A stretch of DNA of 64,000 nucleotides, from contig JAFUBX010000120.1 in assembly GCA_017459985.1 (NCBI GenBank), positions 22,776-86,775 on the forward strand, written 5' to 3'. Source of the stretch: Parasporobacterium sp. Its GTDB lineage: Bacteria > Bacillota > Clostridia > Lachnospirales > Lachnospiraceae. The position numbers and the translations under genes were made by a program. Positions 2,305 to 25,015 of the stretch are shown here, piece after piece (position 1 is the first letter of the stretch; each line of letters begins with the position of its first letter). The notes under the pieces are model-generated. The model saw only the letters and a list, made by a program, of their open reading frames with translations. It was not told the origin of the DNA and did not search any database.

Positions 2305-2348
2305 TCGGAAAGAGCAGCGATACAGTTAGATATAAATTATTTTACTGA

Positions 2349-2373
2349 CCCTCAGGACCTTACGGATCCGAGG
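2349..2373 (+). promoter_or_regulatory. Imperfect hairpin upstream of the binding-protein gene
   Basis: In the 87-base gap between the nitrogenase-like gene and the binding-protein gene, CCCTC at the left pairs with GAGGG at the right, with a partly paired middle and a TTAC loop. It sits about 8 bases before the GAAAGGAG ribosome binding site. It could separate expression of the enzyme genes from the transporter genes or stabilise the downstream transcript. No T-tract follows, so it is not a normal terminator. Confidence 0.3.
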
Positions 2374-2391
2374 GGGAAGAAAGGAGTTTTT

Positions 2392-3525: not shown

Positions 3526-3527
3526 AT

Positions 3528-5332: not shown

Positions 5333-5367
5333 TCGCAGAAATGGCGGGCCCCTCATCCGGATATATA

Positions 5368-5420
5368 GTTAACGCAGATGGCGCCGAATACGCAAGTCTC
5401 AGTTCGGCCCGGCTGAAAGA
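5368..5420 (+). promoter_or_regulatory. Possible structured leader before the TM1266-like gene
   Basis: The 102-base gap after the ABC ATPase contains a perfect 6-base stem, GCCGAA pairing with TTCGGC around a 14-base loop, followed by an A/G-rich stretch and GAGAGG, the ribosome binding site. I compared it by eye with common riboswitch cores (SAM, c-di-GMP, glycine, cobalamin, THF, moco) and matched none. May simply be a mRNA hairpin. Confidence 0.25.
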
Positions 5421-5434
5421 AAGAGAGGTAGCAT

Positions 5435-5689
5435 ATGGAAGAGCAAAGCACCCGGCTGGCGGTGATTGCAATTGTTGTTGAGGATACGGAGAACGCAGTC
5501 TCGATCAATTCGCTTCTGCATGAATACGGATCCTATATCATTGGGCGCATGGGAGTTCCTTATCCTGCCAAAAATATTTCTCTGATCAGTGTCGCGATCG
5601 TAGCGCCTTCTGATACGATTTCCGCATTGACCGGAAAACTGGGAAAGATCAAAGGCGTAACGGTAAAAACGGCTTATTCCAAGGTGTAA
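5435..5689 (+). CDS. TM1266-family ACT-like putative regulator
   Basis: Small 84-residue protein of a single ACT/NikR-C-like fold. It matches the family annotated as putative iron-only hydrogenase system regulator (TM1266 type): features include RLAVIAIVVED, SINSLLHEYGSYIIGRMGVPY and the end block SALTGKLGKIKGVTVKTAYSK. In other clostridia this family often sits beside FeFe-hydrogenase maturation genes (hydE, hydF, hydG); none is visible here. Ribosome binding site GAGAGG. It is followed 7 bases later by a PfkB kinase and sits just after the nitrogenase-like/ABC genes, so a role in sensing metal or redox state is an inference only. Confidence 0.75.
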   Translation: MEEQSTRLAVIAIVVEDTENAVSINSLLHEYGSYIIGRMGVPYPAKNISLISVAIVAPSDTISALTGKLGKIKGVTVKTAYSKV

Positions 5690-5696
5690 ATCGGAT

Positions 5697-6626
5697 ATGA
5701 ACTGGCTGAACAGATTGAAAAAAAATAAGAAGATCGTCGTGATCGGAACGGTGTTTCTGGATATTAAGGGGTATCCGGAACCACCGTTTGAACCTACCGG
5801 ACGGAATATCGGAAGAATCGAATACCGGTATGGCGGAGTTGCCCGCAATGTCGCAGCGGATCTGGCGGAAATGGGACTTCATCCCCTGTTTGTCAGTATG
5901 ACAGATCCCAAAGGACAGGGAGAAGAGATCGCAGCGGATCTGGAACGCAAGGGAGTCGATCTTCAGTATCTGCTCCGGCAGGAGGACAGCATCGGAACCT
6001 GGATGGTGATCCTGGATCCGGAGGGAGAGGTTTGCGCCAATCTGTCAAAACGGCAGAATCTGGAACCTTTATGCAGTCTTCTTCTGGAGAAGGGGAAGGA
6101 GATCTTTCGGGATGCGGATGGGATCCTTCTGGAAATGGATGTGGATGAAAATCTGGCGGAGATGGTATTTTCTCTCGCAAAAGCCGCCCATACCAGAGTC
6201 TATGGTGTGATCTCCAATATTCACGTTGCGATGGAACGGATGCGGCATCTGGTGAAAACAGACTGTTTTGTGTGCAACCGGTCTGAGGCGGGAACATTAT
6301 TTGGAATTTCTACGGAACAGATGACTTCCGGGGAACTTCTGGAGCTGCTGGACAGGGAACGCCGCAGGATCGGAATGAATCAGATGATCGTGACGATGGA
6401 TAAGGATGGGGCCGTGTATTCGTCGGACCGGGAATCCGGATATTGTCCCGCGCAGCCGGTGAAACTCGTGGATTCCACCGGCGCCGGAGATTCTTTCTTC
6501 GCCGGAGTGTCCGCCGGTCTGATCAGCGGATTCTCCCTGTCAGAGGCGTGTCAGTTTGGAAGCCTGATCGCTGCTTCCGTGATCACTTCCACAGAAAATG
6601 TGTACTGTCGAAACGGCAGGGACTGA
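5697..6626 (+). CDS. PfkB-family carbohydrate or nucleoside kinase
   Basis: Ribokinase-like small-molecule kinase, 309 residues, the usual size for the family. N-terminal substrate region includes GGVARNVAADLAEMG near residues 42-56, and the C-terminal signature is DSTGAGDSFFAGVSAGL at about 257-273, with the catalytic Asp in AGD. The overall look (short beta lid, TGNIGRIEYRYGG-like substrate loop) is closest to pseudouridine kinase-type members, but ribokinase or adenosine kinase activity cannot be excluded. Seven bases after the TM1266-like gene, so probably co-transcribed. Its stop lies inside a small hairpin at 6616-6643 that faces the convergent gene. Confidence 0.8.
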   Translation: MNWLNRLKKNKKIVVIGTVFLDIKGYPEPPFEPTGRNIGRIEYRYGGVARNVAADLAEMGLHPLFVSMTDPKGQGEEIAADLERKGVDLQYLLRQEDSIGTWMVILDPEGEVCANLSKRQNLEPLCSLLLEKGKEIFRDADGILLEMDVDENLAEMVFSLAKAAHTRVYGVISNIHVAMERMRHLVKTDCFVCNRSEAGTLFGISTEQMTSGELLELLDRERRRIGMNQMIVTMDKDGAVYSSDRESGYCPAQPVKLVDSTGAGDSFFAGVSAGLISGFSLSEACQFGSLIAASVITSTENVYCRNGRD

Positions 6627-6676
6627 AGCATTGTCGTTCCTGCCCTGACCTGCTTCCGGACTCAGATTCAGCATTA

Positions 6677-6746
6677 TATTCGGGTCGGCTGCCGGCTCAG
6701 ATCTTGTGATGTATTCGGGTCGGCTGCCGGCTCAGATCTGGTGCCG
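6677..6746. repeat. 35-base direct duplication at the 3' end of the DUF6472-like gene
   Basis: Two copies of a 28-base identical core, starting at 6677 and 6712 (period 35), contain TCGGCTGCCGGCTCAGATCT. The second copy includes the stop codon of the minus-strand cysteine protein gene and its last codons (Gln-Ile-stop), so the first copy is a duplicated gene end lying beyond the stop. Looks like recent slippage or unequal exchange. Confidence 0.8.
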
Positions 6747-6905
6747 GACTGTATCATACTCGTCCCCGTTTCGCCAGAACGGGCATTGTCTGTAATGCCC
6801 GGACAGAAGTTTTGCGGTGTCATCTTCATCCATATCGGCATCACAGACATACTCGTCGTAATCTTCATCATAAATGTAATAGGCGCAGGACTCACACTGA
6901 TTCAT
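6732..6905 (-). CDS. Small cysteine-containing protein, DUF6472-like
   Basis: A 57-residue frame read from ATG at 6905 down to TGA at 6732. Four cysteines are placed as CxxC (Cys4, Cys7), Cys21 and Cys41, suggesting a small metal-binding (zinc ribbon-like) fold; the rest is acidic and rich in Tyr and Asp (IYDEDYDEYVCDADMDEDD). It resembles the short Lachnospiraceae family DUF6472 as I remember it, which shows the same MN-CESCA start and a CPFWR-GDEY end. Its ATG overlaps the stop codon of the PIN/NYN gene (ATGA at 6902-6905), so the pair is translationally coupled. Function unknown. Confidence 0.75.
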   Translation of the reverse strand: MNQCESCAYYIYDEDYDEYVCDADMDEDDTAKLLSGHYRQCPFWRNGDEYDTVRHQI

Positions 6906-8128
6906 GACTGAAAATCCCGAAAGATATCTTTGATCAGGTTGTATACTTCGCCGCCTTTGCTGCTGCCGAAGGTCTTCACCAGAAGATTGTTCAGCGCCAG
7001 TTTGTCATAACTGTTAATGATTGCTTTGTAAATCGAAGAGTAGTAGGCGGAAGGAATGTTTTTTCCTTTTAATGCGGTACGGACTCTCTTCCGGTAAGCC
7101 TCCGGAAGAGTATCGGGCTTAAGGATCACGGATACTTCTTCCTGCCGTTCATCTTCCGGATCCGGACCGGCAGCCGGTCTGGACTCAGGATCCTTCGCAG
7201 AATCTTCCTGCCTTGCCTTCTCATTCCCGAGCTGTTCCTGCTTTGTCTGTTCCTGCTTTCCCTGCTCCGGATTTACTTGTTCCGGCTTCCCTTGCTCCTG
7301 TTTCCGGGAATTATTCTTCCTGGAACGGGACCGATTATTGGAAGAGCGGGAGGGCTGCGGAGTATCTGCCGGAATCTCCATGATTTCCTGCGGAAGTGAT
7401 TCTTCAGCAGTCATTGATTCTGCTTCTGCTGCAGTTGCTCCTGCGGCTGCTGTATCAGCCTCTGCGTTTACTTCTGCCTTTTCGACTGATTCTGATTCAG
7501 TCCATTCCGGAATGTTTTGTTCATCTGCAGTCAGTTCGGATGACATCAGTTCAGAAGAGGATTGTGCTGCTGCGGTCTGATCCGGAACCAATGTATTTTC
7601 TGTATTTTCCGATCCGGTTTTTTCAGATGCATTGGAAAGTCCGCCGCCCCGGTCCGTTAAATATAATTCCACAACATTTGGTTTCGTGACCTGTGTTCCC
7701 TGACGGAATGTGACCTGTGCCGGCGGTGTCTTATGAGCCGGATTCTGTCCCGTGGATTTGCCAAGACTGCGGTTGTATCCGATTGCCGGCTGTCTCAATA
7801 CCGTAATCCCGTGATCCTTCCAGTAATCGATGGCACTGTCATATCCGGTATCTTTGCTGATAATGTAAAACGGACCTTCCATTCCGGCTCCGATGATATA
7901 TCCCAGATGGGTCACAAGCTGGAAATCCAGATAGTTTTTTGCAGACCGGCGCAGTTTGATGTATTTGACCTTCGCCAAAGACTTCATGATATTGACATGG
8001 GTATCAAAGGACATGTGCTCAGATTTCTCGCTGTAGAAAATGCAGAGTTCATCCTTTTCCGTAAGAGCTGTGACTCCGTTGATTCCGGAGTCATGGACAT
8101 TTTCAAAATCCAATAAATAAATCGCCAT
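6902..8128 (-). CDS. PIN/NYN-like domain protein with long repetitive linker
   Basis: 408 residues. Residues 1-125 look like a PIN-like (NYN) nuclease domain: LLDFENVHDSG gives the first acidic motif (Asp7, Asn10), and SKDTGYDSAIDYW near residue 95 gives the second. The middle (about 150-330) is low complexity: Ala/Glu/Ser-rich, then repeats of the type KQEQGKPEQ. Residues 330-408 form a second folded domain (PEAYRKRVRTALKGKNIPSAYYSSIYKAI and onward) with no family I can name. Ribosome binding site AGGAGG 8 bases before ATG. Coupled to a small cysteine protein downstream. Likely an RNA-directed nuclease or RNA-binding regulator, but activity is unproven. Confidence 0.7.
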   Translation of the reverse strand: MAIYLLDFENVHDSGINGVTALTEKDELCIFYSEKSEHMSFDTHVNIMKSLAKVKYIKLRRSAKNYLDFQLVTHLGYIIGAGMEGPFYIISKDTGYDSAIDYWKDHGITVLRQPAIGYNRSLGKSTGQNPAHKTPPAQVTFRQGTQVTKPNVVELYLTDRGGGLSNASEKTGSENTENTLVPDQTAAAQSSSELMSSELTADEQNIPEWTESESVEKAEVNAEADTAAAGATAAEAESMTAEESLPQEIMEIPADTPQPSRSSNNRSRSRKNNSRKQEQGKPEQVNPEQGKQEQTKQEQLGNEKARQEDSAKDPESRPAAGPDPEDERQEEVSVILKPDTLPEAYRKRVRTALKGKNIPSAYYSSIYKAIINSYDKLALNNLLVKTFGSSKGGEVYNLIKDIFRDFQS

Positions 8129-9415: not shown

Positions 9416-10843
9416 ATGAAGAAAGACAGAATGCAAAAAAGCCGGAAGTATCAGTATATTGCGGGATTGCTGATCCTGATTTTCATCGGGACAGTGTTTC
9501 CGTACCATAGTCATGCAGCCAAAATGGATCTGGTCAGTCTGCCGTTCAGCCTGGATGGAGGAGGATCGGTAATGGTTACGGCATATGAGTCGAATTATGC
9601 CAATAACTTTTTTGTTTCTCTGCGCAGTCTGTCGAAGCTGCTGACAGGGACCATCAGTCAGTTCGGGTTCTATAATGATGAGGAAGGCGCTTATCATGTG
9701 GATCTGGGCATGTCGTATGATCCGGCAAAGGAACCCAAACGCAAGGAAGAGGATTCGGAGGAAGAAAAGCCTGTGGATCTGACCCCTCCGGAATCAACCT
9801 GGCTGGAGTATGCTGCAAACTGGCTGCTGAAGGACGGAGAAAGTGTTGTGTATTATACGTACGCAGATTATTCGATTGAGGATCTGTATATGAGTCTGAT
9901 TGATATTCAGCTGCTTCTGGATCTCAATATTACATATGAAGACGGAATATATAAGATCACCACGGATCAGCATTTCGCGATCAATCTGGACAGGCTGAAT
10001 GAACAGGGATATTTTGATTATCTTCATGGGGTGCTTCTGGGTGATGCGTCGACAGGGGAGATCTTTATGGGCTGTCATGAAGACCTGCCGGTTCCGATCG
10101 CCAGCACTACAAAGCTCATGACTGCGATGATCGCAATGCGGATGATCGAAATCGGAAAGATCACTCCCGATGATCCGGTGACCGTTTCCGCCAATGCAGC
10201 CAGAATGTCTCTGGCGGATGATTCCGTGATCGGCATGTATGCCGGTGAAGTGACGACAGTCCGGGATCTTCTGTACGCCATGCTGGTGATGTCGAGCAAC
10301 GAATCCGCGGAAGTTCTTGCGGAATATATTGCCGGATCCCAGGAAGAATTTGTCAGCATGATGAATGCCATGGCCTTCAAACTGGGGATGGACACCGCTG
10401 TGTTTTACAATCCCCACGGCCTTCCGGAATATCTGAAGGGGGATGCTGTAGTCATGGTGGAAAACAGAGCAAGCGCGAAGGATATGTTCCTGCTGTCCAA
10501 GGCGATCCTGCAGAAGTATCCGGAGATCACGGAATATACCTCCGTCAGAAATATCTGGCTGGACTCTTTGTGGGTGGACCTTTATACGACAAATTCTCTG
10601 ATGTATAACATGCCGGATGTATTCGGACTGAAGACCGGAACGACAGATGCCGCCGGAAAATGCCTGATCTCTTCCCGTTCCGTAACAATCGACGGAAGAG
10701 AGCATATGATCGTGGCAGTGGTGTTGGGAGCTGAATTCAACAGTGACCGTATCCAGGTCTCCGAGCTCCTGCAGAAAGGCGTCCGGTATTATTTCAACAA
10801 AAAGGCGGCGGAAGCGGCAGCCGAAACATCAGAAGAGCAGTAA
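9416..10843 (+). CDS. D-alanyl-D-alanine carboxypeptidase (PBP5/DacA family)
   Basis: Serine-type penicillin-binding protein that trims D-Ala from peptidoglycan stems outside the membrane. 475 residues from ATG 9416, chosen because AAGGA lies 8 bases upstream; an ATG at 9407 overlaps that site. Residues 1-38 form a signal peptide or anchor (GLLILIFIGTVF). An extra N-terminal domain of about 190 residues, like a copper-amine-oxidase-N or similar beta domain, precedes the catalytic part. The active-site motifs are all present: SxxK as STTK (about residue 228), SxN as SSN (about 298) and KTGTT (about 406). Stands alone under its own promoter. Confidence 0.9.
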   Translation: MKKDRMQKSRKYQYIAGLLILIFIGTVFPYHSHAAKMDLVSLPFSLDGGGSVMVTAYESNYANNFFVSLRSLSKLLTGTISQFGFYNDEEGAYHVDLGMSYDPAKEPKRKEEDSEEEKPVDLTPPESTWLEYAANWLLKDGESVVYYTYADYSIEDLYMSLIDIQLLLDLNITYEDGIYKITTDQHFAINLDRLNEQGYFDYLHGVLLGDASTGEIFMGCHEDLPVPIASTTKLMTAMIAMRMIEIGKITPDDPVTVSANAARMSLADDSVIGMYAGEVTTVRDLLYAMLVMSSNESAEVLAEYIAGSQEEFVSMMNAMAFKLGMDTAVFYNPHGLPEYLKGDAVVMVENRASAKDMFLLSKAILQKYPEITEYTSVRNIWLDSLWVDLYTTNSLMYNMPDVFGLKTGTTDAAGKCLISSRSVTIDGREHMIVAVVLGAEFNSDRIQVSELLQKGVRYYFNKKAAEAAAETSEEQ

Positions 10844-10870
10844 AATTCCCGGAATTTCAGACGAAAACAG

Positions 10871-10899
10871 TTGCATTCCTATATCTTGTGTGTTATATT
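10871..10899 (+). promoter_or_regulatory. clpB promoter with a palindrome over the -10 box
   Basis: -35 TTGCAT at 10871-10876, 17-base spacer, -10 TATATT at 10894-10899. TGTGT and ACACA flank the -10 box as an inverted repeat, which could be an operator. I saw neither a CIRCE element nor a CtsR-type GGTCAAA repeat. The leader is about 60 bases. Confidence 0.6.
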
Positions 10900-10967
10900 A
10901 CACATAGAACAGATATATCAGTATCTGTCCTTATGATATTTGGAATTTTTCACAAGGTGGTGATGTT

Positions 10968-13553
<2,586 letters not shown>

Positions 13554-14149: not shown

Positions 14150-15469
14150 ATGGATCTTTTTGAGTATGCCCATCAGAACCGAATAAAGCAGGAAGCACCG
14201 CTGGCTTCCCGGATGCGGCCGGAGACCCTGGAGGAATTCCGTGGGCAGAAACATATCCTGTCCGAGGGCAGTCATTTATACAGATCCATCAAGGCGGACC
14301 GGTTATCCTCCGTTATTTTTTACGGTCCCAGCGGAACCGGAAAGACTACGCTGGCACGGGTGATCGCCAATGCGACTGCGGCGGATTTCCGGCAGATCAA
14401 CGCCACCATTGCCGGGAAAAAGGATATGGTGGAGATCGTGGAGCAGGCCAAACTCACCAGGGCGGGATACGGAAGGAAAACCATTCTGTTTATTGACGAG
14501 ATCCATCGGTTCAATAAGGCGCAGCAGGATTATCTGCTTCCCTTTGTAGAAGACGGAACCGTGACACTGATCGGTGCCACGACGGAGAATCCGTATTTTG
14601 AAGTCAACGGGGCGCTGATCTCCCGGTCCACGATCTATGAATTAAGACCCCTGGAACGGGAGGATATCAGGGAGATTATCCTCAAAGCCGTCCAGGATAA
14701 GGAAAAGGGAATGGGATCCTACCATGCGGTGATGGATGAGGACGCGGCGGATTTTCTGGCGGATTACTCCGGCGGAGATGCCCGGATCGCCCTGAACGCT
14801 GTGGAGCTGGCCGTTCTCACCACCCCTCCCGGTGTGGATGGGATCCGGATCACAACAGCTGTCATCGAGGAATGCGTACAGAAAAAGAACCTGCGGTATG
14901 ATAAAAACGGAGACAATCATTATGACACGATCTCCGCCTTTATCAAGAGCATGCGGGGATCCGACCCGGATGCAGCCGTATATTATCTGGCCAAGATGCT
15001 GTATGCCGGGGAGGATGTGAATTTTATCGCCCGGCGGATCATGATCTGCGCTGCGGAGGATGTGGGCTGCGCGGATCCCAGAGCCCTGCAGGTGGCCGTT
15101 GCCGCCCAGCAGGCGGTGCATGTGCTGGGCATGCCGGAAGCCAGGATTCCGCTGGCAGAGGCTGTCGTCTACGTAGCCGGTGCGCCAAAGAGCAATTCCG
15201 CGGTTATGGCGATTGACCGGGCCATGCAGATCGTAGAGACCACCGATATCCGGGATGTCCCGTCCCATCTGAAGGATGCGCATTACAAGGGAGCGAAGAA
15301 TCTGGATCACGGGACGAATTACCAGTATGCCCATGCATTTCCGGAACATTATGTGAAACAGCAGTATCTGCCGGATGAACTGGTGGGTACGGTGATCTAT
15401 GAACCCGGAACGCTTGGATATGAGAAGAATATGAAAGACAGACTGGAACGCTTAAGGAACCGGGAATGA
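14150..15469 (+). CDS. rarA: Replication-associated recombination protein A (RarA/MgsA)
   Basis: AAA+ clamp-loader-like ATPase acting at stalled replication forks. 439 residues from ATG 14150. Walker A GPSGTGKTTLA about residues 61-70, Walker [12 protein letters not shown] about 115-125 and the Ser-Arg-Ser sensor ALISRSTIYEL; C-terminal RarA tetramerisation domain ends YEPGTLGYEKNMKDRLERLRNRE. N-terminus starts MDLFEYAHQNRI, as usual for the family. Stop codon overlaps the ATG of the DUF5717 gene (ATGA at 15466), so this housekeeping gene heads a run that includes an uncharacterised set. Confidence 0.93.
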   Translation: MDLFEYAHQNRIKQEAPLASRMRPETLEEFRGQKHILSEGSHLYRSIKADRLSSVIFYGPSGTGKTTLARVIANATAADFRQINATIAGKKDMVEIVEQAKLTRAGYGRKTILFIDEIHRFNKAQQDYLLPFVEDGTVTLIGATTENPYFEVNGALISRSTIYELRPLEREDIREIILKAVQDKEKGMGSYHAVMDEDAADFLADYSGGDARIALNAVELAVLTTPPGVDGIRITTAVIEECVQKKNLRYDKNGDNHYDTISAFIKSMRGSDPDAAVYYLAKMLYAGEDVNFIARRIMICAAEDVGCADPRALQVAVAAQQAVHVLGMPEARIPLAEAVVYVAGAPKSNSAVMAIDRAMQIVETTDIRDVPSHLKDAHYKGAKNLDHGTNYQYAHAFPEHYVKQQYLPDELVGTVIYEPGTLGYEKNMKDRLERLRNRE

Positions 15470-18400
15470 GTGAATTGTTGTATGATGCCCTGATGCTGGG
15501 ACGCAATAAAAAGGTTGCGGCGGAAGAATACCAGGTGGCAACCGGCAGAAAGCAGAGCGCGGCATTTAGTACAAAAGAAGAGCAGATTAATATTTCCAAC
15601 GTCATCTCCGATGGCGAATTTTCTGTGCATTTGTTTCAGACGGTTCCGGGATATATTGAAATCGAAGTGTTCTGCGAGGACAATTTCCTGATCTTTGACC
15701 GGAAAGTGATCAATACCGATGAATTCCAGAATGGACAGTTTGAATTCAAGTTTATGCTGATCTCTGACCGGCTTCATAACGGACGCAACTGTACCGCCAT
15801 TTCCTTCCGCACTTCCAGTCAGACCATCGAAGTGCCGGTCAATATCGATAACCGGATCCGGGTTCGGATCGGAGAGGGCAACCCGAGAGAGCGGATCTTC
15901 CGGCTGATGAAGTCCCTTCTGAAATTGCAGATCGGCCAGAGTGAACAGTGGGAGTGGGCGAAGGAAAGTCAGGAACTGTTAAATGAGATCCCCGGCGAGG
16001 ATGAGGTCTCTTTATACCTGATGCTTTATAAGGCCCAGGTCTTTATTACCGGCGGAGATGATGTTCATGCCCGGAATTACATCGAGCATGTGGGAACCCA
16101 GATTCCCAAACTGGAAAAGAAAAACTACGATATCTACTGCTATTTTATTTATCTTGCAAGCCTTTATGAGGAACTGGAAGGAGTCGCCAACTTTGCGGCT
16201 CCCGGAAGCTGCGTCACAGAACTGAGGGCCAAGGGCAACCGCAAAAGCCGCCGCGTCCAGCCTGCGGCGAACGCTAATATTATGGATATGAGCGCCCTGC
16301 AGAAGGTTCAGTGGGTCTATGATCACAATCCGAGCTGGTGGATTCTCTGGATCCTGTTTTATATGGATCCGGATTACCGGTTTGATCCGGAAGCAAGACT
16401 TAGGAAAATGCAGGAAATGTTTTACGAATATTCCTGCACCAGTCCATTTCTGTATCTGGAGGCATTCCGGATCATCCGGGAGAATCCGCAGCTTGTGAAA
16501 GAGGCGGATGCGTTTCTGATCCATGTGCTTCATTTTGCGGCAAAGAATGAATGTTTGGACCGGGAGACTTCCGAACAGATGGCGGAGGTGCTGCTGTCTT
16601 CAAAGGAAAGCAGCCTGTCCCTGCCGGAAACGAAGATCGCCTGTGAGGTGTTCCGGAAGGCATACCAGCAGTTCAAAGGCGTCCGGGTTCTGAAGGAACT
16701 GTGCTATCTTCTGATCGATGCGGATGACAGGGATCTGAGTTCTCACACCTATTTTGAGCAGGTGATCCGGAACAAGGAAACGGACGAGCTTTTCTATGAT
16801 TATTACATTTATACCCTGGATCAGTCGGAGATGAATCAGATCGATCCTTCGGTCATGCAGTATTTTCTTGAGCATACAGAGCTGTTATATGAATACAAAG
16901 CCTATATGTATGCCAATATCATTGCGAATAAATACTATGACCAGGAAAGCTACAGGAAGGGGATCGAACAGATCCTGAGGTTTGCCGAACATGAAACTGC
17001 CCAGGGCCATAATAATGAAGTCCTTGCCGTGATCTACAAAGAGATCCTGGAAAACGGCCTGCTGACCCGCGTGATGAAGGACAATCTGTTCGATATTGTC
17101 TGCACCCGGGGAATCTGCTGTGAAAACGAGCGGATGCGGAGCGTCCTTGTCTTTCATAAGGAACTGCAGGTTTATCAGGAAAGCGGACTGAAAAACAAAA
17201 AAGCTTATATCCGGATCTATTCTTCCGATGCCCTGATCCTGTTTAAGGACGATACGGGGAATATTTACTATAATGTGGATTATACGGTAAATCAGCTGCT
17301 GGATACGAAGGAGTATATCGATCTTTGCATCAAAGACGTGCGGATCAATCAATACATGCTTCTGGGGGATACTTTCCCGATCCTGCGGGCATATAAACCC
17401 GCACCGGAGATCCTGGAGTATTTTACCTCCCACCGTATGGCAGGGCAGTTCCGCCGGGGATATGAACAGGAGCTCCTGGCAAAGGTGATCGCGTATTATG
17501 TGAAAAATTCCCGGGATGAGCAGGTACATGACGCGCTTTTGAAATTCAGGGAATTTGAATTGTCGCCGGAGAGCCGGGGACAGCTGATCCGGATCATGCT
17601 GGAACGCAATCTGTATGACGATGCCTTTGAAGAGATCCGGGAATACGGTTCCTGCGGACTGGAAAAGGAAGATTTCGCCAGACTGGCCAACGGATATATT
17701 TTCATGCATGGCATGATGGAGGATCCGTTGTTGACCCGTATCTGCGAGACCGGATACCAGGCCGACGGATTTGATGAAAAGATCTTCAACTACCTGTATC
17801 TGTATTATGACGGCGGTCTGGAGACTCTGATCGATCTGTACCGGTCCTGCCGGGCTTACCATAAGGATGCAGTTCCTGTGGCAGAACGGATCTTATGGAA
17901 ATCCATCAATACAGGTGAGCATCCGGCAGTGGTTTCCAGAATCATCCTGCAGTATTATGAGGAAGGACAGAACCGGAACCTGGTCAGAAAATATCTGGAA
18001 TTTCGCTCCGGCGTCTATCTGTACGGCCTGATGAAAGGCAGTGCTGACGAGGTCAGTCAGGACACGGAATTCTTCGAAATAATGGAAAAGGAACTGGCCA
18101 GAGGATACTCCTTTGCGGATGACGCGCTGGCGGCTTTTCTGCTCTGGAGAATGGAATCCCGGGAATTGGAGGAACGGCAGATCCGGGTGGCGGAGAAGGT
18201 CCTGAAGGATCTGGTCCGTCGGGGGAAGATGCTGGAGGAATTCAAATCCTTTGCCCGGTATTTTCCGTTGCCATCCACCCTCGCGAATAATATAATCATA
18301 TCTGCGTTTTCCGAGAACCCCGGAGAGAAGCCCATGATCGCCTACGAGATCACCGGCTCCGGGCATCGCAGAAACGGCGTAGAGGAGATGGAGGAAATCT

Positions 18401-18639
18401 TCCGGCGGTGCTATGTTAAGTACTTTACCTTGTTCTATGGAGAAAAGGTGGTGTTTTCCATGGACGGAAAGGAAAATACCGAGGTGCGTTATTCGGATCT
18501 GTATATCAGCAGGGACGGCTCCCGCTATGCCGCTCTGGATGATATCATCCGGCGGAAGGAACAGCAGGATATGGACGGATTCCGGGAATCCGCGAAGGAA
18601 TTTTTTATTAAGGAGAAACTGATCGAACGGTTATTGTAA
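15466..18639 (+). CDS. Large uncharacterised protein, DUF5717-like
   Basis: 1057 residues, no signal peptide and no membrane segment, so cytoplasmic. The first 130 residues look like a beta-rich domain (GEFSVHLFQTVPGYIEIEVF and RVRIGEGNPRERIF), and the rest is a long alpha-solenoid of degenerate helical pairs with many aromatic and acidic residues. A short beta-like C-terminal domain (VVFSMDGKENTEVRYSDLY) ends the chain. It resembles DUF5717, a family I associate with Lachnospiraceae. ATGA overlap with rarA; 2 bases before the Hsp70/actin-like DUF5716 gene. Likely a scaffold or co-factor for that ATPase-like protein; activity unknown. Confidence 0.75.
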   Translation: MSELLYDALMLGRNKKVAAEEYQVATGRKQSAAFSTKEEQINISNVISDGEFSVHLFQTVPGYIEIEVFCEDNFLIFDRKVINTDEFQNGQFEFKFMLISDRLHNGRNCTAISFRTSSQTIEVPVNIDNRIRVRIGEGNPRERIFRLMKSLLKLQIGQSEQWEWAKESQELLNEIPGEDEVSLYLMLYKAQVFITGGDDVHARNYIEHVGTQIPKLEKKNYDIYCYFIYLASLYEELEGVANFAAPGSCVTELRAKGNRKSRRVQPAANANIMDMSALQKVQWVYDHNPSWWILWILFYMDPDYRFDPEARLRKMQEMFYEYSCTSPFLYLEAFRIIRENPQLVKEADAFLIHVLHFAAKNECLDRETSEQMAEVLLSSKESSLSLPETKIACEVFRKAYQQFKGVRVLKELCYLLIDADDRDLSSHTYFEQVIRNKETDELFYDYYIYTLDQSEMNQIDPSVMQYFLEHTELLYEYKAYMYANIIANKYYDQESYRKGIEQILRFAEHETAQGHNNEVLAVIYKEILENGLLTRVMKDNLFDIVCTRGICCENERMRSVLVFHKELQVYQESGLKNKKAYIRIYSSDALILFKDDTGNIYYNVDYTVNQLLDTKEYIDLCIKDVRINQYMLLGDTFPILRAYKPAPEILEYFTSHRMAGQFRRGYEQELLAKVIAYYVKNSRDEQVHDALLKFREFELSPESRGQLIRIMLERNLYDDAFEEIREYGSCGLEKEDFARLANGYIFMHGMMEDPLLTRICETGYQADGFDEKIFNYLYLYYDGGLETLIDLYRSCRAYHKDAVPVAERILWKSINTGEHPAVVSRIILQYYEEGQNRNLVRKYLEFRSGVYLYGLMKGSADEVSQDTEFFEIMEKELARGYSFADDALAAFLLWRMESRELEERQIRVAEKVLKDLVRRGKMLEEFKSFARYFPLPSTLANNIIISAFSENPGEKPMIAYEITGSGHRRNGVEEMEEIFRRCYVKYFTLFYGEKVVFSMDGKENTEVRYSDLYISRDGSRYAALDDIIRRKEQQDMDGFRESAKEFFIKEKLIERLL

Positions 18640-18641
18640 CG

Positions 18642-19910
18642 ATGGCAGGCAAAGGATTGACGATTGGAATTGATTATAATGATCAGTATTGCCAGGCATG
18701 CTATTTCAGTGAACGGCATGGCAGGCCGGAGTCTGTTTCCGGAGGGACCGATGTGCTCAGATATCTGATCCCTTCGGTGCTATGCTATGATCCGGCAGCA
18801 CAGGAATGGACCATCGGCAACGCAGCCCTCAGGATTGCGGACAATCCGGGGATCCTGGTATTCCGGGAACTGTTTCAGCATGTGTTCTCCGGACAGACCG
18901 TAAGGGTGGAGGACCGGGAATACAACTATACACAGCTTCTGGCGGTCTATTTCGGAAAGCTCCTGGAGTTCATCCAGATCAGGACCTCTGTCATGGGTGT
19001 GGACAGCATCACAGTTACCATGAAATCCGTGAACCGCCAGATCAAGGAGACTCTCGAAGAAGTGTTTGAGATCCTTAAGGTTCCGGCCGGGAAGGTCCGG
19101 CTCCTGAGTGCCTCGGAAAGCTTCGGATATTATATCATGAGTGAGGATCCGAAACTGTGGCAGGACGGGGCGCTGATGTTTGACTTCAGCTCCGGGGGAT
19201 TCTTTGTCAAACAGCTGAATATCCGGTTTGATAAGGATCAGCCTCTGGTATATATCAATGAGTATGATTTTTCCGGAGACTTTTCCGTCGATCATCTTGC
19301 CAGTGAAGTCCTGAGAAATCAGATGGACCTGAAGATCTCCAATTTGTATCTGGACCTGATCGCCAAGGGAAACCAATCCAGCGTCTATTTCACAGGAGAG
19401 GGATTTGACGAGCAGTGGTTTACGGCGACTTTGAACAATATCTCCGGAAGCCGCAGGGCATTCAAGGGAAATAATATTTATGTCAAGGGGGCCTGCATTG
19501 CAGGGCATATGAATCCGGATGCCGGGGCATTCCCCATTATCTGCAAAGGGAGAACCCGGGCGGACATTTCGGTCCTGGCCTGGGACAATGGGGAGCAGAC
19601 ACAGATCCTGCTTTCGCCCGCGGCGGTGGAGTGGTATGATGCCGGGTATCTTGGGGATTTCATTCTGGAAAATGAGAAACAGATCCAGTTTCAGATCCAT
19701 TCCATTGTGTCCGGCGCGGATTCGAGCCTGGGGATGGATCTTTCCACCTTCCCGGAGCGGCCGCCCAAAACAACAAGGATACAGATCGAGATCCGCTACA
19801 GCAGTGAATATGAATGCGAGATCCTGATCACGGACAAGGGATTCGGGGATTTTTATCCGGACAGGGGAACCGTGGTTTCCCGGAAATTCAGTCTGGAAGG
19901 GTATATTTAA
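18642..19910 (+). CDS. Hsp70/actin-fold protein, DUF5716-like
   Basis: 422 residues. Looks like a diverged member of the sugar kinase/Hsp70/actin fold: N-terminal phosphate-1-like strand LTIGIDYNDQYCQACYF (residues 6-22), a second phosphate-like loop ALMFDFSSGGFFVKQL near 177-192, a stretch LLSASESFGYYIMSE like the Hsp70 EPTAAA region, and SVYFTGEGFDEQWF then YVKGACIAGHMN near 245-292 where Hsp70 has its adenosine motif and AxGAA. The final 110 residues are beta-rich, as a substrate domain might be. The second Gly of the adenosine motif (GG) is replaced by GEG, so nucleotide use is uncertain. Sits between DUF5717 and a TPR protein. Confidence 0.7.
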   Translation: MAGKGLTIGIDYNDQYCQACYFSERHGRPESVSGGTDVLRYLIPSVLCYDPAAQEWTIGNAALRIADNPGILVFRELFQHVFSGQTVRVEDREYNYTQLLAVYFGKLLEFIQIRTSVMGVDSITVTMKSVNRQIKETLEEVFEILKVPAGKVRLLSASESFGYYIMSEDPKLWQDGALMFDFSSGGFFVKQLNIRFDKDQPLVYINEYDFSGDFSVDHLASEVLRNQMDLKISNLYLDLIAKGNQSSVYFTGEGFDEQWFTATLNNISGSRRAFKGNNIYVKGACIAGHMNPDAGAFPIICKGRTRADISVLAWDNGEQTQILLSPAAVEWYDAGYLGDFILENEKQIQFQIHSIVSGADSSLGMDLSTFPERPPKTTRIQIEIRYSSEYECEILITDKGFGDFYPDRGTVVSRKFSLEGYI

Positions 19911-19913
19911 CAG

Positions 19914-20711
19914 ATGCTGACTGCAACCAAACAATCGATAACCGGATACTGGATCGAGCCTCTGAAGAAGAACATTTATTCTCTGGAGGAGATCAATTAT
20001 TTTCTGTACCATCACATTGATCTGGTTTACAGAGAGTTTTTCAATGAGCAGCTGTTCGACTATATAGAAAAGGAACTGCAGCAGCCTGTCATGGCGGACG
20101 ATCTGAGAAAGATTGCGGAACGAAAGGGAGACACCGGGGAATTTGTCCGATATCTTCTGAATGAGTCCTATTATTATAACAGCCGGGAGCTGGCGGAGAT
20201 CTCCGGTTTGGTTGCCGCCATCGATACTATGGGACAGGCAGAGCGGTTTAAGATCCAGGGGGATTCCTGGTATAAGTCCGGACAGCTTGAATCGGCGCTG
20301 CGGTGTTATCTTGAAGCCCTGAAATACCGTGGGACCGAAGATGTGGGAGATGCGTTTTATGCCAGAGTGTCCTATGCCATCGGAACAATTTACGCCATGC
20401 AGTTTATGTGCAAAAGCGCGAATACCTTCTTCTCCTATGCCTATGATCTGTCTCCGGATCCGGCGTTTGCCAGGGCGTGCCTGTATATGAGCATACTGGC
20501 CGGGGATGATGAGGAGCTGCTGTCTTCCATTGTGAAGTACAAGGTCAGTGACGACTATTTGGATACCATTAAGGAACGGGTCGCCGCCACACGGGCGGAG
20601 ATCGAAGCCTCGGATGAGATGCGGGACTTCTCCGGGAATCTGGAACACAGCGAATATGCGGAGGAACTTCTGCAATTGTGGAAAAACAAGTATTATACAA
20701 TGCTGAAATAA
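19914..20711 (+). CDS. Tetratricopeptide-repeat protein next to DUF5716/DUF5717
   Basis: 265 residues, cytoplasmic. First 95 residues contain an acidic helical region (KKNIYSLEEINYFLYHHIDLVYREFFNEQLFDYI, split in the family as a docking domain is possible). From about residue 110, TPR-like helices: GDSWYKSGQLESALRCYLEALK and ARVSYAIGTIYAMQF and YDLSPDPAFARACLYMS. Starts 3 bases after the DUF5716 stop, so it belongs to the same operon. TPR proteins are typical Hsp70 partners, which supports a chaperone-like complex, but that is inference. Confidence 0.75.
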   Translation: MLTATKQSITGYWIEPLKKNIYSLEEINYFLYHHIDLVYREFFNEQLFDYIEKELQQPVMADDLRKIAERKGDTGEFVRYLLNESYYYNSRELAEISGLVAAIDTMGQAERFKIQGDSWYKSGQLESALRCYLEALKYRGTEDVGDAFYARVSYAIGTIYAMQFMCKSANTFFSYAYDLSPDPAFARACLYMSILAGDDEELLSSIVKYKVSDDYLDTIKERVAATRAEIEASDEMRDFSGNLEHSEYAEELLQLWKNKYYTMLK

Positions 20712-20733
20712 ATGAAAAAGGAAATGAATTGTA

Positions 20734-23391
20734 ATGAAAGAACTTGCCAAAACCTATAATCCAAAGGAGATTGAACAGAAAATCTACGATAACTGGCTGG
20801 AACAGAAGTATTTTCATGCATCCTGCGATGAAAATAAAAAGCCATTTACCATCGTGATGCCGCCTCCGAATATCACAGGACAGCTGCATATGGGTCATGC
20901 GCTCAATAATACCCTGCAGGACATCGTGATCCGGCAGAAACGGATGCAGGGCTATGACGCCCTGTGGCAGCCGGGGTGTGATCACGCATCCATCGCGACG
21001 GAGGTCAAGATCATTGAAAGCCTGAAGAAGGAAGGCATTGACAAGCATGATCTGGGCAGAGAAAAATTTCTGGAAAAAGCCTGGCAGTGGAAGGAAGAAT
21101 ACGGCGGCCGGATAGTAAATCAGCTGAAGAAACTGGGATCCTCCGCGGACTGGGACCGGGAACGGTTTACCATGGATGAAGGCCTGTCCCGGGCAGTTCT
21201 GGAAGTCTTTATCAAAATGTATGAGAAGGGCCTGATCTACAAGGGAACGAAGATCATCAACTGGTGCCCGATGTGCCAGACGACGGTGTCCGACGCGGAA
21301 GTGGAACATAAAGATACGAAGGGCCATTTCTGGCATATCAATTATCCGATCAAAGGAGAGGACCGCTGTATCGAGATCGCGACGACCCGGCCGGAAACCA
21401 TGTTGGGAGATACGGCTGTTGTTGTACATCCGGATGATGACCGGTATAAGGATCTGATCGGCAAAACCGCCATTCTTCCCATCGTGAACCGGGAGCTTCC
21501 GATTATCGCGGATACTTATATCGATATGGAAGTGGGGACCGGAGCGATGAAAGTGACGCCGGCCCACGATCCCAATGACTTTGAACTGGGCAGACGATAT
21601 GGCCTGGAGGAGATCTGCGTCTTTACCGATGACGGATATATCAATGAACAGGGCGGCAAATATCAGGGAATGTCCACAATGGAATGCCGCAAGGCCATTG
21701 TAAAGGAACTGGAAGAGCTGGGGCTCCTGGTGAAAGTAAAGGAATACGAGCACAGCGTCGGTCATCACGACCGCTGCGGATGTATCATCGAACCCATGAT
21801 CAAACAGCAGTGGTTTGTCAAAATGGACGAACTGATCAAGCCGGCGATCAAAGCCGTTGATGAAGGGGAAGTCCGGCTGATCCCTGCCCGTATGAGCAAA
21901 CTGTATCACAACTGGACAGATAATATCCGTGACTGGTGTATTTCCAGACAGCTGTGGTGGGGACATCGGATTCCGGCCTATTACTGCGACAGCTGCGGAC
22001 ATATGGTGGTTGCCCGGGAATGCCCGGATCAGTGTCCGTCCTGTCAGGGCACATCCTTCCATCAGGATGAGGATTGCCTGGATACCTGGTTTTCTTCCGC
22101 ACTGTGGCCCTTCAGTACGTTGGGCTGGCCGGATGAGACTCCGGAGCTGAAGCATTTTTATCCGACCAATCTGCTGATCACCGGATACGATATTATCTTT
22201 TTCTGGGTGATCCGTATGATCTTTTCCGGCTACGAGCAGATGGGAGAACGGCCCTTTGACGCGGTGCTGTTCACCGGTCTTGTCCGGGATGATCAGGGAC
22301 GGAAGATGAGCAAGTCTCTCGGCAACGGCATTGATCCGCTGGAGGTCATCGATAAGTACGGCGCGGATGCGCTCCGGTTTACGCTGGTGACCGGAAACGC
22401 CCCTGGAAATGACATGCGTTTTTACTGGGAGCGGGTCGAGGCAAACCGCAACTTTGCCAATAAGATCTGGAACGCGTCCCGGTTTATCCTGATGAATATG
22501 CCGGAGGAAGGGGTATCCTTTACGAATACGGACGCCCTGACGGATGCGGATAAATGGATCCTGTCCAAAGCAAATCAGCTGATCCGTGTGGTTACGGAGA
22601 ACATGGACAAATATGAGATCGGCATGGCAGCAGACAAACTTTATGAGTTTATCTGGGATGAGCTGTGTGACTGGTACATCGAGATGGTAAAGCCAAGACT
22701 TCGGGGAGAGGACGAGGACAGCCGGCAGGCAGCGCTTTATACTCTGCAGACGGTGCTGATGATCTCTCTGAAACTGCTGCATCCGTATATGCCCTTCGTG
22801 ACGGAGGCGATTTACGGCTCCCTGCAGCCGCTGGCCAGCGACCGGTATCCGGAGGAATCTATTATGATTTCCACGTGGCCGGAGTATGATGCCTCCATGG
22901 ATTACGGGGCGGAACAGGCCCGGACAGAACTGATCAAGGAAGCCGTCCGCGGGATCCGGAATGTCCGGTCCGGTATGAATGTGCCACTGTCCCGCAAAGC
23001 CAAAGTGTATGTTGTGTCGGATTCCGAAACGATCCGGGATACCTTTGAAAAGGGCCGGGAGTTCTTTGCAACCCTTGCAAAAGCCAGCGAAGTTTCGGTT
23101 CAGGAAAGCCAGGAAGGAATTTCAAAAGATGCCTTGTCAGTTCAGTTAGCTGGTGCTACTATATACATTCCATTGGAAGATCTTGTGGATATTGACAAGG
23201 AGATCGAAAGACTGACCGCAGAGAAAGAGCGCCTGGAGGGGGAACTGAAGCGCGTGAACGGCATGCTTTCCAATGAACGGTTCCTGTCCAAAGCCCCCGA
23301 GTCCAAGGTACAGGAAGAACAGGCAAAGAAAGAGAAATACGAAAAGATGATGGAGCAGGTGGAAAGCCAGCTGGCATCACTGAGAAAATAA
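20734..23391 (+). CDS. valS: Valyl-tRNA synthetase
   Basis: Class I synthetase charging tRNA-Val, 885 residues as usual. HIGH signature region PPPNITGQLHMGHALNN at about 43-59 (HMGH), editing (CP1) domain with the TTRPETMLGDTAVVVHP motif, KMSKS signature [17 protein letters not shown] near 522, anticodon-binding domain, and a C-terminal coiled coil (about 810-885, heptad-rich Glu/Lys) that is specific to ValRS. Only 22 bases follow the TPR gene, so there is no room for a T-box leader; expression depends on the upstream run. Ribosome binding site AAAAGGAAATG. Confidence 0.98.
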   Translation: MKELAKTYNPKEIEQKIYDNWLEQKYFHASCDENKKPFTIVMPPPNITGQLHMGHALNNTLQDIVIRQKRMQGYDALWQPGCDHASIATEVKIIESLKKEGIDKHDLGREKFLEKAWQWKEEYGGRIVNQLKKLGSSADWDRERFTMDEGLSRAVLEVFIKMYEKGLIYKGTKIINWCPMCQTTVSDAEVEHKDTKGHFWHINYPIKGEDRCIEIATTRPETMLGDTAVVVHPDDDRYKDLIGKTAILPIVNRELPIIADTYIDMEVGTGAMKVTPAHDPNDFELGRRYGLEEICVFTDDGYINEQGGKYQGMSTMECRKAIVKELEELGLLVKVKEYEHSVGHHDRCGCIIEPMIKQQWFVKMDELIKPAIKAVDEGEVRLIPARMSKLYHNWTDNIRDWCISRQLWWGHRIPAYYCDSCGHMVVARECPDQCPSCQGTSFHQDEDCLDTWFSSALWPFSTLGWPDETPELKHFYPTNLLITGYDIIFFWVIRMIFSGYEQMGERPFDAVLFTGLVRDDQGRKMSKSLGNGIDPLEVIDKYGADALRFTLVTGNAPGNDMRFYWERVEANRNFANKIWNASRFILMNMPEEGVSFTNTDALTDADKWILSKANQLIRVVTENMDKYEIGMAADKLYEFIWDELCDWYIEMVKPRLRGEDEDSRQAALYTLQTVLMISLKLLHPYMPFVTEAIYGSLQPLASDRYPEESIMISTWPEYDASMDYGAEQARTELIKEAVRGIRNVRSGMNVPLSRKAKVYVVSDSETIRDTFEKGREFFATLAKASEVSVQESQEGISKDALSVQLAGATIYIPLEDLVDIDKEIERLTAEKERLEGELKRVNGMLSNERFLSKAPESKVQEEQAKKEKYEKMMEQVESQLASLRK

Positions 23392-23421
23392 GAGATATTC
23401 GTAAAAGATAAGAGGGATAAG

Positions 23422-23571
23422 ATGATTAATTTTGACGAGGCAATCAAACAGTTTCATCCGAGCCTGGAAATCAACGAGGTGGAACAGGCGGTAAAGAAGG
23501 AAAATGCAGTAGAAGACATCACGGATATCATGCTGGAGGTCATGAACCAGGCATCCAAGAAGGGCAAATAG
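23422..23571 (+). CDS. 49-residue hypothetical protein
   Basis: Short frame between valS and the zinc-ribbon/TPR gene, starting MINFDEAIKQFHPSLEI and ending NQASKKGK. It has a strong ribosome binding site (AGAGGGA, 7 bases before ATG) and ends 1 base before the next ATG. Acidic, helical, no cysteines, no membrane segment. Tight packing on both sides makes it credible as a real gene. No family recognised; placement suggests it may be a small partner of the following protein. Confidence 0.6.
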   Translation: MINFDEAIKQFHPSLEINEVEQAVKKENAVEDITDIMLEVMNQASKKGK

Positions 23572-23572
23572 G

Positions 23573-25015
23573 ATGAAGTGTTATAAGTGCGGAAGCTTTT
23601 TATATGATGGTGAGTTCTGCAGCACCTGCGGAGCGGATGTTACGGTTTACCGGGAGATCGTTCTGAAATCGAATGATTTCTATAACAGCGGACTGGAGTA
23701 TGCCAGGGACCGGAATCTCAGCAAGGCGATTGAACATCTGAATCTCAGCCTGAAGCTGTATAAGGGAAATATCAATTCCCACAATCTTCTGGGACTGGTC
23801 TATTTTGAGACCGGAGAATACACACTGGGATTTGCGCACTGGGTGATCAGCAAGAATATTCAGCCGGAGAATAATCTGGCCAATATGTTTTTGGATCTGG
23901 TGCAGGAAGATAAAGCCTATTTTGATTCCATTAATTCCAATATCAAAAAATACAACAAGGCCATCAGCTATGTAGAGCAGGAAAGCTATGATCTTGCGGA
24001 GATTCAGCTGAAGAAGATCCTCAATGACAATACGGTCCATATGGTGAAGGCTTACCAGCTCTCTGCTTTGCTGCGGATCCGGAAAAAGAAATATGCAGCG
24101 GCCAGGAAGATCCTGGAACGGGCGCAGGCCATTGACGCTGGGGATCCGACGACCATTGCCTATATGACAGCAGTCAACAGTCAGATTAAAAATGAAGAGA
24201 AGGATCTGACCCCCGGAGAACTGAAAACCAAGCATCTGCAGGAAAACGCGGAGGAAGACCTTCATTCTCCGTTATCCGGAGACGACGTAATCATTCCGAA
24301 GTCTTCCTATAAGGAATACAATCCGACAACCGTTGCGATCATTCAGATCCTGATTGGATTTATCGTCGGCGCGGCATTGATCTTTTTCGTCGTTGTTCCT
24401 GCCAAGACCAATTCGATCCGGAACGAAGCGGCTGCCACCCAGTCCGGACTGGAGGCGCAGATCGCTCAGCTGACGGAAGAAAATGCAAGACTCAGCACTC
24501 CTGCAGTTACGGAGCCGGAGTCACAGGCAGCACAGGATGAAGCTGCTTCCGGCAGTGCGGAGCCCCAGACAACCTCCGAAGAGGACGCTCGGAAAGAAGA
24601 AACCGCGAAGAAGGATGAAGCCCTTTTGCTGGAGGCCTATGCGGCTTATCAGGACGGCGATATCGAAACCAGCGGAAACAAGCTGCTGGAGATCACGGAT
24701 GCCAGTGTGTTTGATGCCGGTAATAAAGCGATCTATGACGCCATCAGTTATACGAAAGACGTCGTACCGGATTACTGGTATAACGGCGCTGTAAGACTGT
24801 TTGAAGAAAACAATTTCGAAGAGGCGCTGAAGGAATTTACCCGGGTTTATGAAGTGGCCAATACTACCGGAGAATCTCTGTATTACATGGGTCTGTGCCA
24901 TTACAACCTGGATCAGTATGAGGAAGCAACCGCCAGGTTTCAGGAATATCTGGATACCTTCCCGGAAGGACCCCATGTAAACGAATGTGAGTACCTGATC
25001 GTGCAGATGAGTTAG
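23573..25015 (+). CDS. Zinc-ribbon and TPR membrane protein
   Basis: 480 residues in clear sections. Residues 1-22 form a zinc ribbon (CYKC ... CSTC). Residues 30-210 are TPR helices (KAIEHLNLSLKLYKGNINSHNLLGLVYFETGEY). One membrane segment lies near 254-275 (IIQILIGFIVGAALIFFVVV). It is followed by a coiled coil (QSGLEAQIAQLTEENARL), a Glu/Ala-rich linker, and a second TPR set near 400-475 like YbgF (EEALKEFTRVYEVANTTGESLYYMGLCHY). The first TPR set would face the cytoplasm and the second the outside. Downstream of the DUF5717/DUF5716/TPR genes and valS; probably a membrane anchor for a related process. Confidence 0.75.
   Translation: MKCYKCGSFLYDGEFCSTCGADVTVYREIVLKSNDFYNSGLEYARDRNLSKAIEHLNLSLKLYKGNINSHNLLGLVYFETGEYTLGFAHWVISKNIQPENNLANMFLDLVQEDKAYFDSINSNIKKYNKAISYVEQESYDLAEIQLKKILNDNTVHMVKAYQLSALLRIRKKKYAAARKILERAQAIDAGDPTTIAYMTAVNSQIKNEEKDLTPGELKTKHLQENAEEDLHSPLSGDDVIIPKSSYKEYNPTTVAIIQILIGFIVGAALIFFVVVPAKTNSIRNEAAATQSGLEAQIAQLTEENARLSTPAVTEPESQAAQDEAASGSAEPQTTSEEDARKEETAKKDEALLLEAYAAYQDGDIETSGNKLLEITDASVFDAGNKAIYDAISYTKDVVPDYWYNGAVRLFEENNFEEALKEFTRVYEVANTTGESLYYMGLCHYNLDQYEEATARFQEYLDTFPEGPHVNECEYLIVQMS

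Follow-up and report, generated by a model that had tools for sequence, protein, structure and literature searches.

We analysed a stretch of 64,000 nucleotides from Parasporobacterium sp. (contig JAFUBX010000120.1, positions 22,776 to 86,775 of the forward strand), referred to below as the window, which contains a block of genes for DUF5717, DUF5716 and tetratricopeptide repeat (TPR) proteins. The source lineage places the organism in the family Lachnospiraceae, consistent with the order Lachnospirales, and "the family" below means Lachnospiraceae. The block lies on the forward strand and begins with a gene for a DUF5717 protein of 1057 amino acids (15466..18639; PF18984 at 9.2e-144 and PF18983 at 3e-44). 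It continues with a gene for a DUF5716 protein of 422 amino acids (18642..19910; PF18980 at 5e-73) and one for a TPR protein of 265 amino acids (19914..20711; TPR_2 at 1.9e-4, below the cut-off). The DUF5717 and DUF5716 proteins are plain members of their Pfam families (PF18983 and PF18984; PF18980), whose titles name no function. Downstream on the same strand are valS (20734..23391), a conserved neighbour found at this place in other loci as well and not proposed here as a part of any machine, and a gene for a zinc-ribbon/TPR/transmembrane protein of 480 amino acids (23573..25015). The gaps are 2 bases between the DUF5717 and DUF5716 genes, 3 between the DUF5716 and TPR genes, 22 between the TPR gene and valS, and 181 between valS and the zinc-ribbon gene. 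A preliminary description of this DNA had proposed that the four unnamed genes, running in one direction around valS, form a chaperone-like system with an Hsp70-like ATPase, and their coordinates and strand are all as it gave them.

To define the conservation of the block, we compared 15 neighbourhoods carrying the same three genes (hereafter the short form), namely the window and 14 fetched from 22 short-form relatives; 13 of the 14 belong to the family and one, L040, to family f8. Open reading frames (ORFs) in the neighbourhoods were set by similarity-weighted gene calling. DUF5717, DUF5716 and the TPR gene were contiguous and on one strand in 15/15 neighbourhoods, so the grouping is more than chance, and the conserved gene order that had been suggested as a check was borne out. 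The L040 block comes from a genome (G167) that is 86% complete with 5% contamination, and it may be a contaminant or a transfer. In the window, the stop codon of rarA overlaps the start codon of the DUF5717 gene in an ATGA (15466..15469, forward strand). This overlap had been noticed before; it is present, and the gene coupled in this way is that for DUF5717, not that for DUF5716. Directly upstream of DUF5717, rarA was found in 2 of the 15 neighbourhoods (the window and L043); in L040 the contig begins within DUF5717 and the upstream gene falls outside the sequence. Since rarA holds this place in two neighbourhoods, its link to the system is weak, and a functional coupling was set aside.

The relationship of DUF5716 to Hsp70 was assessed with profiles and a structural model. 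The profile built from the window protein together with 14 short relatives had DnaK (2v7y) as its first match at 2.6e-5, over positions 9-190 only, and all 11 matches listed up to E 10 were Hsp70s. With a profile of 21 longer DUF5716 relatives, DnaK was matched at 5.8e-24 over positions 21-501, that is, across the nucleotide-binding domain (NBD) and the β-sheet part of the substrate-binding domain (SBD-β). One longer relative, from locus L063, carries PF18980 (2e-21) and PF00012 (4.6e-9) in a single protein. For the window protein, the AlphaFold2 (AF2) model, in which 54 relatives were used, had a mean predicted local distance difference test score (pLDDT) of 81.2 and a predicted template modelling score (pTM) of 0.82. 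The top 50 Foldseek matches to this model were Hsp70-class by their titles and chain names, with DnaK first (1.5e-19); query TM-scores were 0.44-0.51 with a large root-mean-square deviation, and the placement of the domains in the model therefore differs or is unreliable. Residues 307-417 (19560..19892, forward strand) form an SBD-β-like C-terminal β domain in the AF2 secondary structure. Past the linker position the window protein has only 122 residues (median 118, n=15), as against 268 in the DnaK of the same genome, and no alpha-helical lid is present. Collectively, the profiles, the intermediate relatives and the predicted fold lead to the conclusion that DUF5716 is an Hsp70 homologue with the Hsp70 fold of NBD and SBD-β. 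The Hsp70-like marks first seen in the protein were thus confirmed by profile search and structure prediction, and an actin- or ROK-type reading was ruled out by the same matches.

Unexpectedly, sister families have a four-Hsp70 operon at this locus. In other Lachnospirales families the order is DUF5717, Hsp70-A, a GrpE-like gene, DUF5716 (Hsp70-B), Hsp70-C, Hsp70-D fused to a VWA domain, and TPR (the full form); in some genomes the TPR gene is followed by that of a coiled-coil protein, with two transmembrane-like stretches recognised by eye, and then by valS. Hsp70-A has about 559 amino acids, the GrpE-like protein mostly 560-645, B about 470-545, C about 545, D with its VWA about 692 and the TPR protein about 388, and DUF5717 is encoded by one gene or two. 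PF00012 was matched by A, C and D at 216, 183 and 301 bits, respectively, with weaker matches to MreB/Mbl profiles. The GrpE-like protein matches PF01025 at its C-terminus (4e-8), and its family profile matches GrpE (4ani) at 6.2e-5. The tail of D matches VWA_4 at 1.8e-10, and in the DTTGS motif of this VWA the D, T, T and S were invariant in 17/17 aligned rows and the G was conserved in at least 90%. VWA domains use a metal site in protein binding. No J-domain match was listed for the 10 operon proteins scanned (for the TPR protein, among the best 25 of 30 matches).

For the extent of the full form, neighbourhoods of 26 full-form genomes were fetched, and genome contigs were scanned with the C-terminal domain of Hsp70-C, which gave 78 loci, a weak match (L148) being set aside. 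The loci are mostly from metagenome-assembled genomes of Defluviitaleaceae, Clostridiales and Ca. Epulonipiscium, with the isolates Defluviitalea phaphyphila Alg1 and Petrocella sp. FN5 among them; the NCBI taxonomy places Defluviitalea and Petrocella within Lachnospirales. The complete order DUF5717-A-GrpE-B-C-D-TPR was present in 28 of the 43 loci that had at least 7 kb upstream and at least 3.6 kb downstream of C, and the other 15 had subsets in the same order. Median gaps between neighbouring core genes were 13-37 bases. Where the sequence allowed the comparison, B adjoined C in 52/65 loci and D adjoined C in 53/70.

The nucleotide site was then compared across these proteins, with the DnaK of the window's own genome as the alignment reference. 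Five features were scored: phosphate-1 (D..TT), K70, E171, phosphate-2 (D.GG) and the adenosine GG, K70 and E171 following the E. coli numbering. None of the 15 short-form B proteins, the window's included, retained any one of the five. Among the long-form B proteins phosphate-1 and K70 were each found in 0/60, E171 in 10/60, phosphate-2 in 7/60 and the adenosine GG in 52/60. Every feature was present in 43/43 Hsp70-A and 76/76 Hsp70-C proteins, and in 64/65 of Hsp70-D (63/65 for phosphate-2), where the misses are gaps and the set of 65 includes both pieces of one split gene (L045). The window protein, on the forward strand, has GIDYNDQYC in place of GID[LF]GTTNS at phosphate-1 (18666..18692), DFSSGGFF in place of D[LF]GGGTFD at phosphate-2 (19182..19205), and TGEGF at the adenosine motif (19392..19406). 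The change of GG to GEG that had drawn attention to the protein is therefore present, and the other four positions are lost as well.

The stretch between phosphate-2 and the adenosine motif is also shortened, to 71 residues in the window protein (19206..19391, forward strand) compared with 143 in the DnaK of the same genome. Medians were 71 (60-77) for short B, 144 for long B, 146 for C, 153 for D and 180 for A. The stretch presumably corresponds to subdomain IIB, as we assign it from the DnaK structure, and about 70 residues of it are missing in short B. In DnaK, subdomain IIB is a main contact of GrpE. The part beyond the linker position is short too: its median length in A, B and C is 118-141 residues, whereas DnaK has 268 there, and the three thus lack the alpha-helical lid; in Hsp70-D the VWA follows SBD-β in the place of the lid. 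As judged from these alignments, A, C and D keep intact ATP motifs, all four paralogues are lidless, and the short form of DUF5716 is very likely a pseudo-ATPase, a degenerate pseudo-Hsp70, as had been suspected from its adenosine motif.

The remaining two proteins of the block were also examined. The AF2 model of DUF5717 (28 sequences) had a mean pLDDT of 72.2 and a pTM of 0.43. It consists of a low-confidence N-terminal β region, an alpha-solenoid at about 140-545, a small β domain at 547-610, a second solenoid at 615-940 and a β domain at 942-1008. The best Foldseek matches were the long TPR-type scaffolds IFT-A, Ctr9 and Ski3, with low TM-scores, and the family profile matches consensus or designed TPR proteins and PPR proteins. 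The N-terminal β part had no convincing relative in the PDB, and many full operons encode it in a gene of its own. A search of viral contigs with DUF5717 found no relative. The model and the Foldseek matches support the alpha-solenoid that had been read from the 1057 residues, and DUF5717 is predicted to be a TPR-like alpha-solenoid with β domains, which we propose as the scaffold. The 265-amino-acid TPR protein of the window clusters with the 380-390-amino-acid TPR protein of the full operon.

The two forms of the locus have flanks in common. Downstream, valS was found in short forms (the window, L033 and L038) and in full forms (L045, L053, L069, L087, L093 and L138). A divergent aminotransferase-type gene stands just upstream of DUF5717 in some short forms (L034, L035 and L038), in some full forms (L067 and L069) and in L151 and L152; its assignment was checked with Pfam in L034, L151 and L152, the checks taking in the full-form genomes G038 and G123. 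After the TPR gene, L087 and L093 have the coiled-coil transmembrane gene, valS and the zinc-ribbon gene (in L093 with further ORFs between), which, apart from the lost genes, is the downstream order of the window. In a tree of B proteins, Hsp70-D being left out, the short B proteins formed a single clade (100/100) that was sister to the B of genome G003 (100/99), and when A, C and DnaK served as outgroup the short B proteins were nested within the full-form B rows. No gene of the full set is missing from the G003 contig (L045), where D and TPR are each broken into two frames (4860-7384 and 10514-11353) and the GrpE-like gene encodes only 279 amino acids; these features reflect either an assembly fault or a decaying locus.

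The distribution of the genes was determined in three samples. Of 196 genomes of the order, 89 carried DUF5716, 22 of these 89 being from the family, and 65 carried Hsp70-C, with a best match of at least 667 bits in each; in none of the 22 family genomes was Hsp70-C found (E ≤ 1e-75). In a second family sample of 40 genomes, one per genus, DUF5716 was present in 39. No true Hsp70-C was found in these 40, where the best match (198.6 bits) lies in a frame of DnaK length, nor was the GrpE-like gene, for which the only three profile matches, in frames of 206-226 amino acids, are consistent with ordinary GrpE. The coiled-coil transmembrane gene was detected in 17 of the 40, always about 1 kb downstream of DUF5716, with four weak partial matches left uncounted; it was not found in the window's genome (G000). 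With PF00012, the single-contig family genome G193 gave, apart from DnaK, just two weak matches, whose frames have 295 and 363 amino acids, and the window's genome gave DnaK, a second Hsp70 of 590 amino acids and one weak match in a 343-amino-acid frame. The second Hsp70 (L150, on contig C92 of that genome) has an intact phosphate-1 motif. A separate DnaK was also present in all five full-operon genomes tested. A class-wide search found Hsp70-C in 0/391 genomes (E ≤ 1e-75); since this sample holds no genome known for the full operon, it informs only on other orders and on the family. DUF5717_N matched in 17 of the 391, of which 16 are from the family and one is below the cut-off.

Considering that the full operon is found elsewhere in the order and that neither Hsp70-C nor the GrpE-like gene turned up in the family genomes sampled, the window most likely holds a reduced form, free of ATPases, of a multi-Hsp70 locus that is still complete in other families of the order. 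We give about an even chance to the whole of this reading, in which the ATPases and the exchange factor were lost and an ATP-independent adaptor was left. The chaperone machine of the preliminary description fares accordingly in two ways: a chaperone ancestry is upheld, and the full operon of related families gives strong support to a link with a chaperone machine; an Hsp70-like ATPase at work in the window is not supported, given that the five features are lost in 15/15 short forms, that the search of 40 family genomes gave no true Hsp70-C or GrpE-like gene, and that by PF00012 G193 has just DnaK and two weakly matching frames.

In the full form, the lidless A, C and D with their intact ATP motifs would act with the GrpE-like protein, B, TPR and DUF5717 as one ATP-driven machine for client handling or assembly, tied to the membrane where the coiled-coil transmembrane gene is present. 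In the family, the ATPases and the exchange factor would be gone and DUF5717, the pseudo-Hsp70 B and TPR would be left, with the membrane protein in under half of the genomes. B would need no nucleotide, having lost the phosphate loops and the subdomain facing GrpE and kept the SBD-β fold. Together with the TPR protein, it would most likely act as a constitutive, ATP-independent adaptor, which binds peptide-like surfaces or those of domains and keeps them in place on the DUF5717 solenoid. Such an adaptor would fit with the IIB stretch and the GrpE-like gene having been lost in parallel. More broadly, Lachnospirales may once have had a membrane-linked machine of four lidless Hsp70s, one of them VWA-tailed, with an exchange factor, from which one family shed the ATPases and kept the pseudo-Hsp70, the solenoid and TPR as a near-universal structural adaptor. 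We hold this wider history more loosely, as plausible yet just short of an even chance.

Comparison with known systems places the locus near the DnaK/GrpE system, which it resembles in the NBD and SBD-β fold of B, in the ATP motifs intact in A, C and D, and in the GrpE-type C-terminal domain of an adjoining gene in the full operon. It differs in having four paralogues, none of them with the alpha-lid and one fused to VWA, in the lack of any J-domain among the matches listed for the operon proteins scanned, and in its own DUF5717/TPR scaffold; of the operon's Hsp70s, the window keeps just the pseudo-Hsp70. Ssz1 and Hsp110/Sse1 are atypical or regulatory eukaryotic Hsp70s that work in a complex with a partner, and entries for RAC/Ssz1 and Hsp110/Sse1 were among the Foldseek matches of DUF5716. 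Sequence identity there was just 8-12%, and Ssz1 keeps its nucleotide site, whereas short B has lost all five features.

Alternatively, the short three-gene form could be ancestral, with A, GrpE, C and D inserted later to give the four-Hsp70 operon. The near-universal presence of the short form in the family (39/40) would agree with this, as would an unrooted tree taken alone. When the tree is rooted on A, C and DnaK, however, short B falls within the full-operon B diversity, beside G003 (100/99), and full B is the less degenerate, with the adenosine GG in 52/60 and the IIB-length spacing kept, features that would be hard to regain. We therefore consider insertion unlikely. DUF5716 could also still be a nucleotide-regulated chaperone of the Hsp70 type that binds ATP weakly or works with DnaK, GrpE and DnaJ, with DUF5717 and the TPR protein as co-chaperones. 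It does keep the Hsp70 fold with NBD and SBD-β, and an ordinary DnaK is present in the window's genome; the loss of phosphate-1 TT, K70, E171, phosphate-2 GG and adenosine GG in all 15 short forms and the roughly 70 residues missing from IIB leave such regulation with a slim probability.

A conflict or immunity system was considered in view of Kaur et al. 2020 (PMC7159879), who describe GAP1-N2 GTPase neighbourhoods of which a subset has HSP70 and GrpE, another HSP70, and an FNIII protein with DnaJ or TPR fused to it. This theme is the nearest published parallel: the parts list is similar, with HSP70, GrpE, a second HSP70 without a peptide-binding domain and a β-repeat protein with DnaJ or TPR, and VWA and membrane links occur in related themes (PMC7159879). 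At the present locus 10 operon proteins were scanned along with 10 flanking ones, which cover part of the flanks, and neither a GTPase nor a GAP1 protein was among them; the locus also departs from the theme in its four Hsp70s, in the VWA fused to one of them and in being a core locus of the family, with DUF5716 in 39/40 genomes and among housekeeping genes. PADLOC, run on nine proteins, gave weak matches only (PDC-M61B to C at 28.6 and to D at 24.6 bits, and a TPR model to the TPR protein at 18.9 bits), and a defence system was set aside on that account; we regard the conflict reading as very improbable. An actin-like or scaffold filament, with B made for polymerisation and not for client binding, would find support in the weaker MreB/Mbl matches of A, C and D, Hsp70 and actin having a common fold. 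It is hardly to be expected at all, since B keeps an SBD-β domain, which actin-like proteins are not known to have, the top 50 Foldseek matches are Hsp70-class, and the nucleotide site needed in polymerisation cycles is lost.

Several points weigh against the reduction of a four-Hsp70 machine to an adaptor. B is not beside C in 13/65 loci and D is not in 17/70, and therefore the operon is not rigid, some sets being rearranged or split. The tree has long branches, and the window row was flagged in it. The single close full-form relative, G003, is the one with the split D and TPR genes and the short GrpE-like gene. Confidence in the DUF5717 model is middling, and A and D were sought, with PF00012, in two family genomes only. 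The loss of nucleotide binding by B is read from sequence, which gives no proof of it, and what we observe is the genes, from which we infer the complex and its function.

The zinc-ribbon/TPR protein is a loose neighbour of the block. Its TPR was matched by Pfam above the cut-off, and its zinc-ribbon cysteines and one transmembrane-like stretch were read by eye from the sequence. The protein was found in 38 of the 40 family genomes; where the genome also has DUF5716 (37 genomes), the two genes lie no more than 15 kb apart in 7, a lower bound because many of the assemblies are fragmented. It also stands downstream of valS in L087, L093, G007, G003 and G123, some of which are full-form. In L158 a folC-like Mur-ligase gene sits directly between valS and the zinc-ribbon gene, and in L161 it does so along with other genes, which suggests that the zinc-ribbon protein belongs with a valS-folC neighbourhood. 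It is not a homologue of the operon's coiled-coil transmembrane protein, no similarity between the two being found in 40 neighbourhoods, and is a separate gene. The protein first counted as a member of the system thus keeps its gene and position, and its link to DUF5716 appears weak.

Elsewhere in the window, positions 2-4541 hold, by eye, a nitrogenase-like component pair followed by the binding protein and permease of an iron-type ABC transporter, and positions 6902-8128 a protein with, by eye, a NYN/PIN-like N-terminus (MAIYLLDFENVH...) and a long low-complexity middle. A promoter scan gave 18 sites against a shuffle mean of 14.4, a result that was not used, and terminator-like sites numbered 23 against a mean of 11.5 and were not interpreted.

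The open-licence literature, which leaves most subscription papers outside, yielded no description of the Hsp70 relation of DUF5716, of the full operon or of its reduction. The pseudo-Hsp70 reading, together with the likely origin as a remnant of a four-Hsp70 system, gives DUF5716, a protein present in 39 of 40 family genomes, a testable role and candidate partners. The full operon is unusual in itself: beside one pseudo-Hsp70 it encodes three lidless Hsp70s with intact ATP motifs and a GrpE-like factor of its own, and in D a VWA takes the place of the lid. Two forms at one locus would permit an Hsp70-type machine to be compared with and without its ATPases. If the reduction is true, an Hsp70 fold that once belonged to an ATP-driven chaperone would now serve as a permanent structural adaptor in this family, with the full ancestor still alive in sister families.

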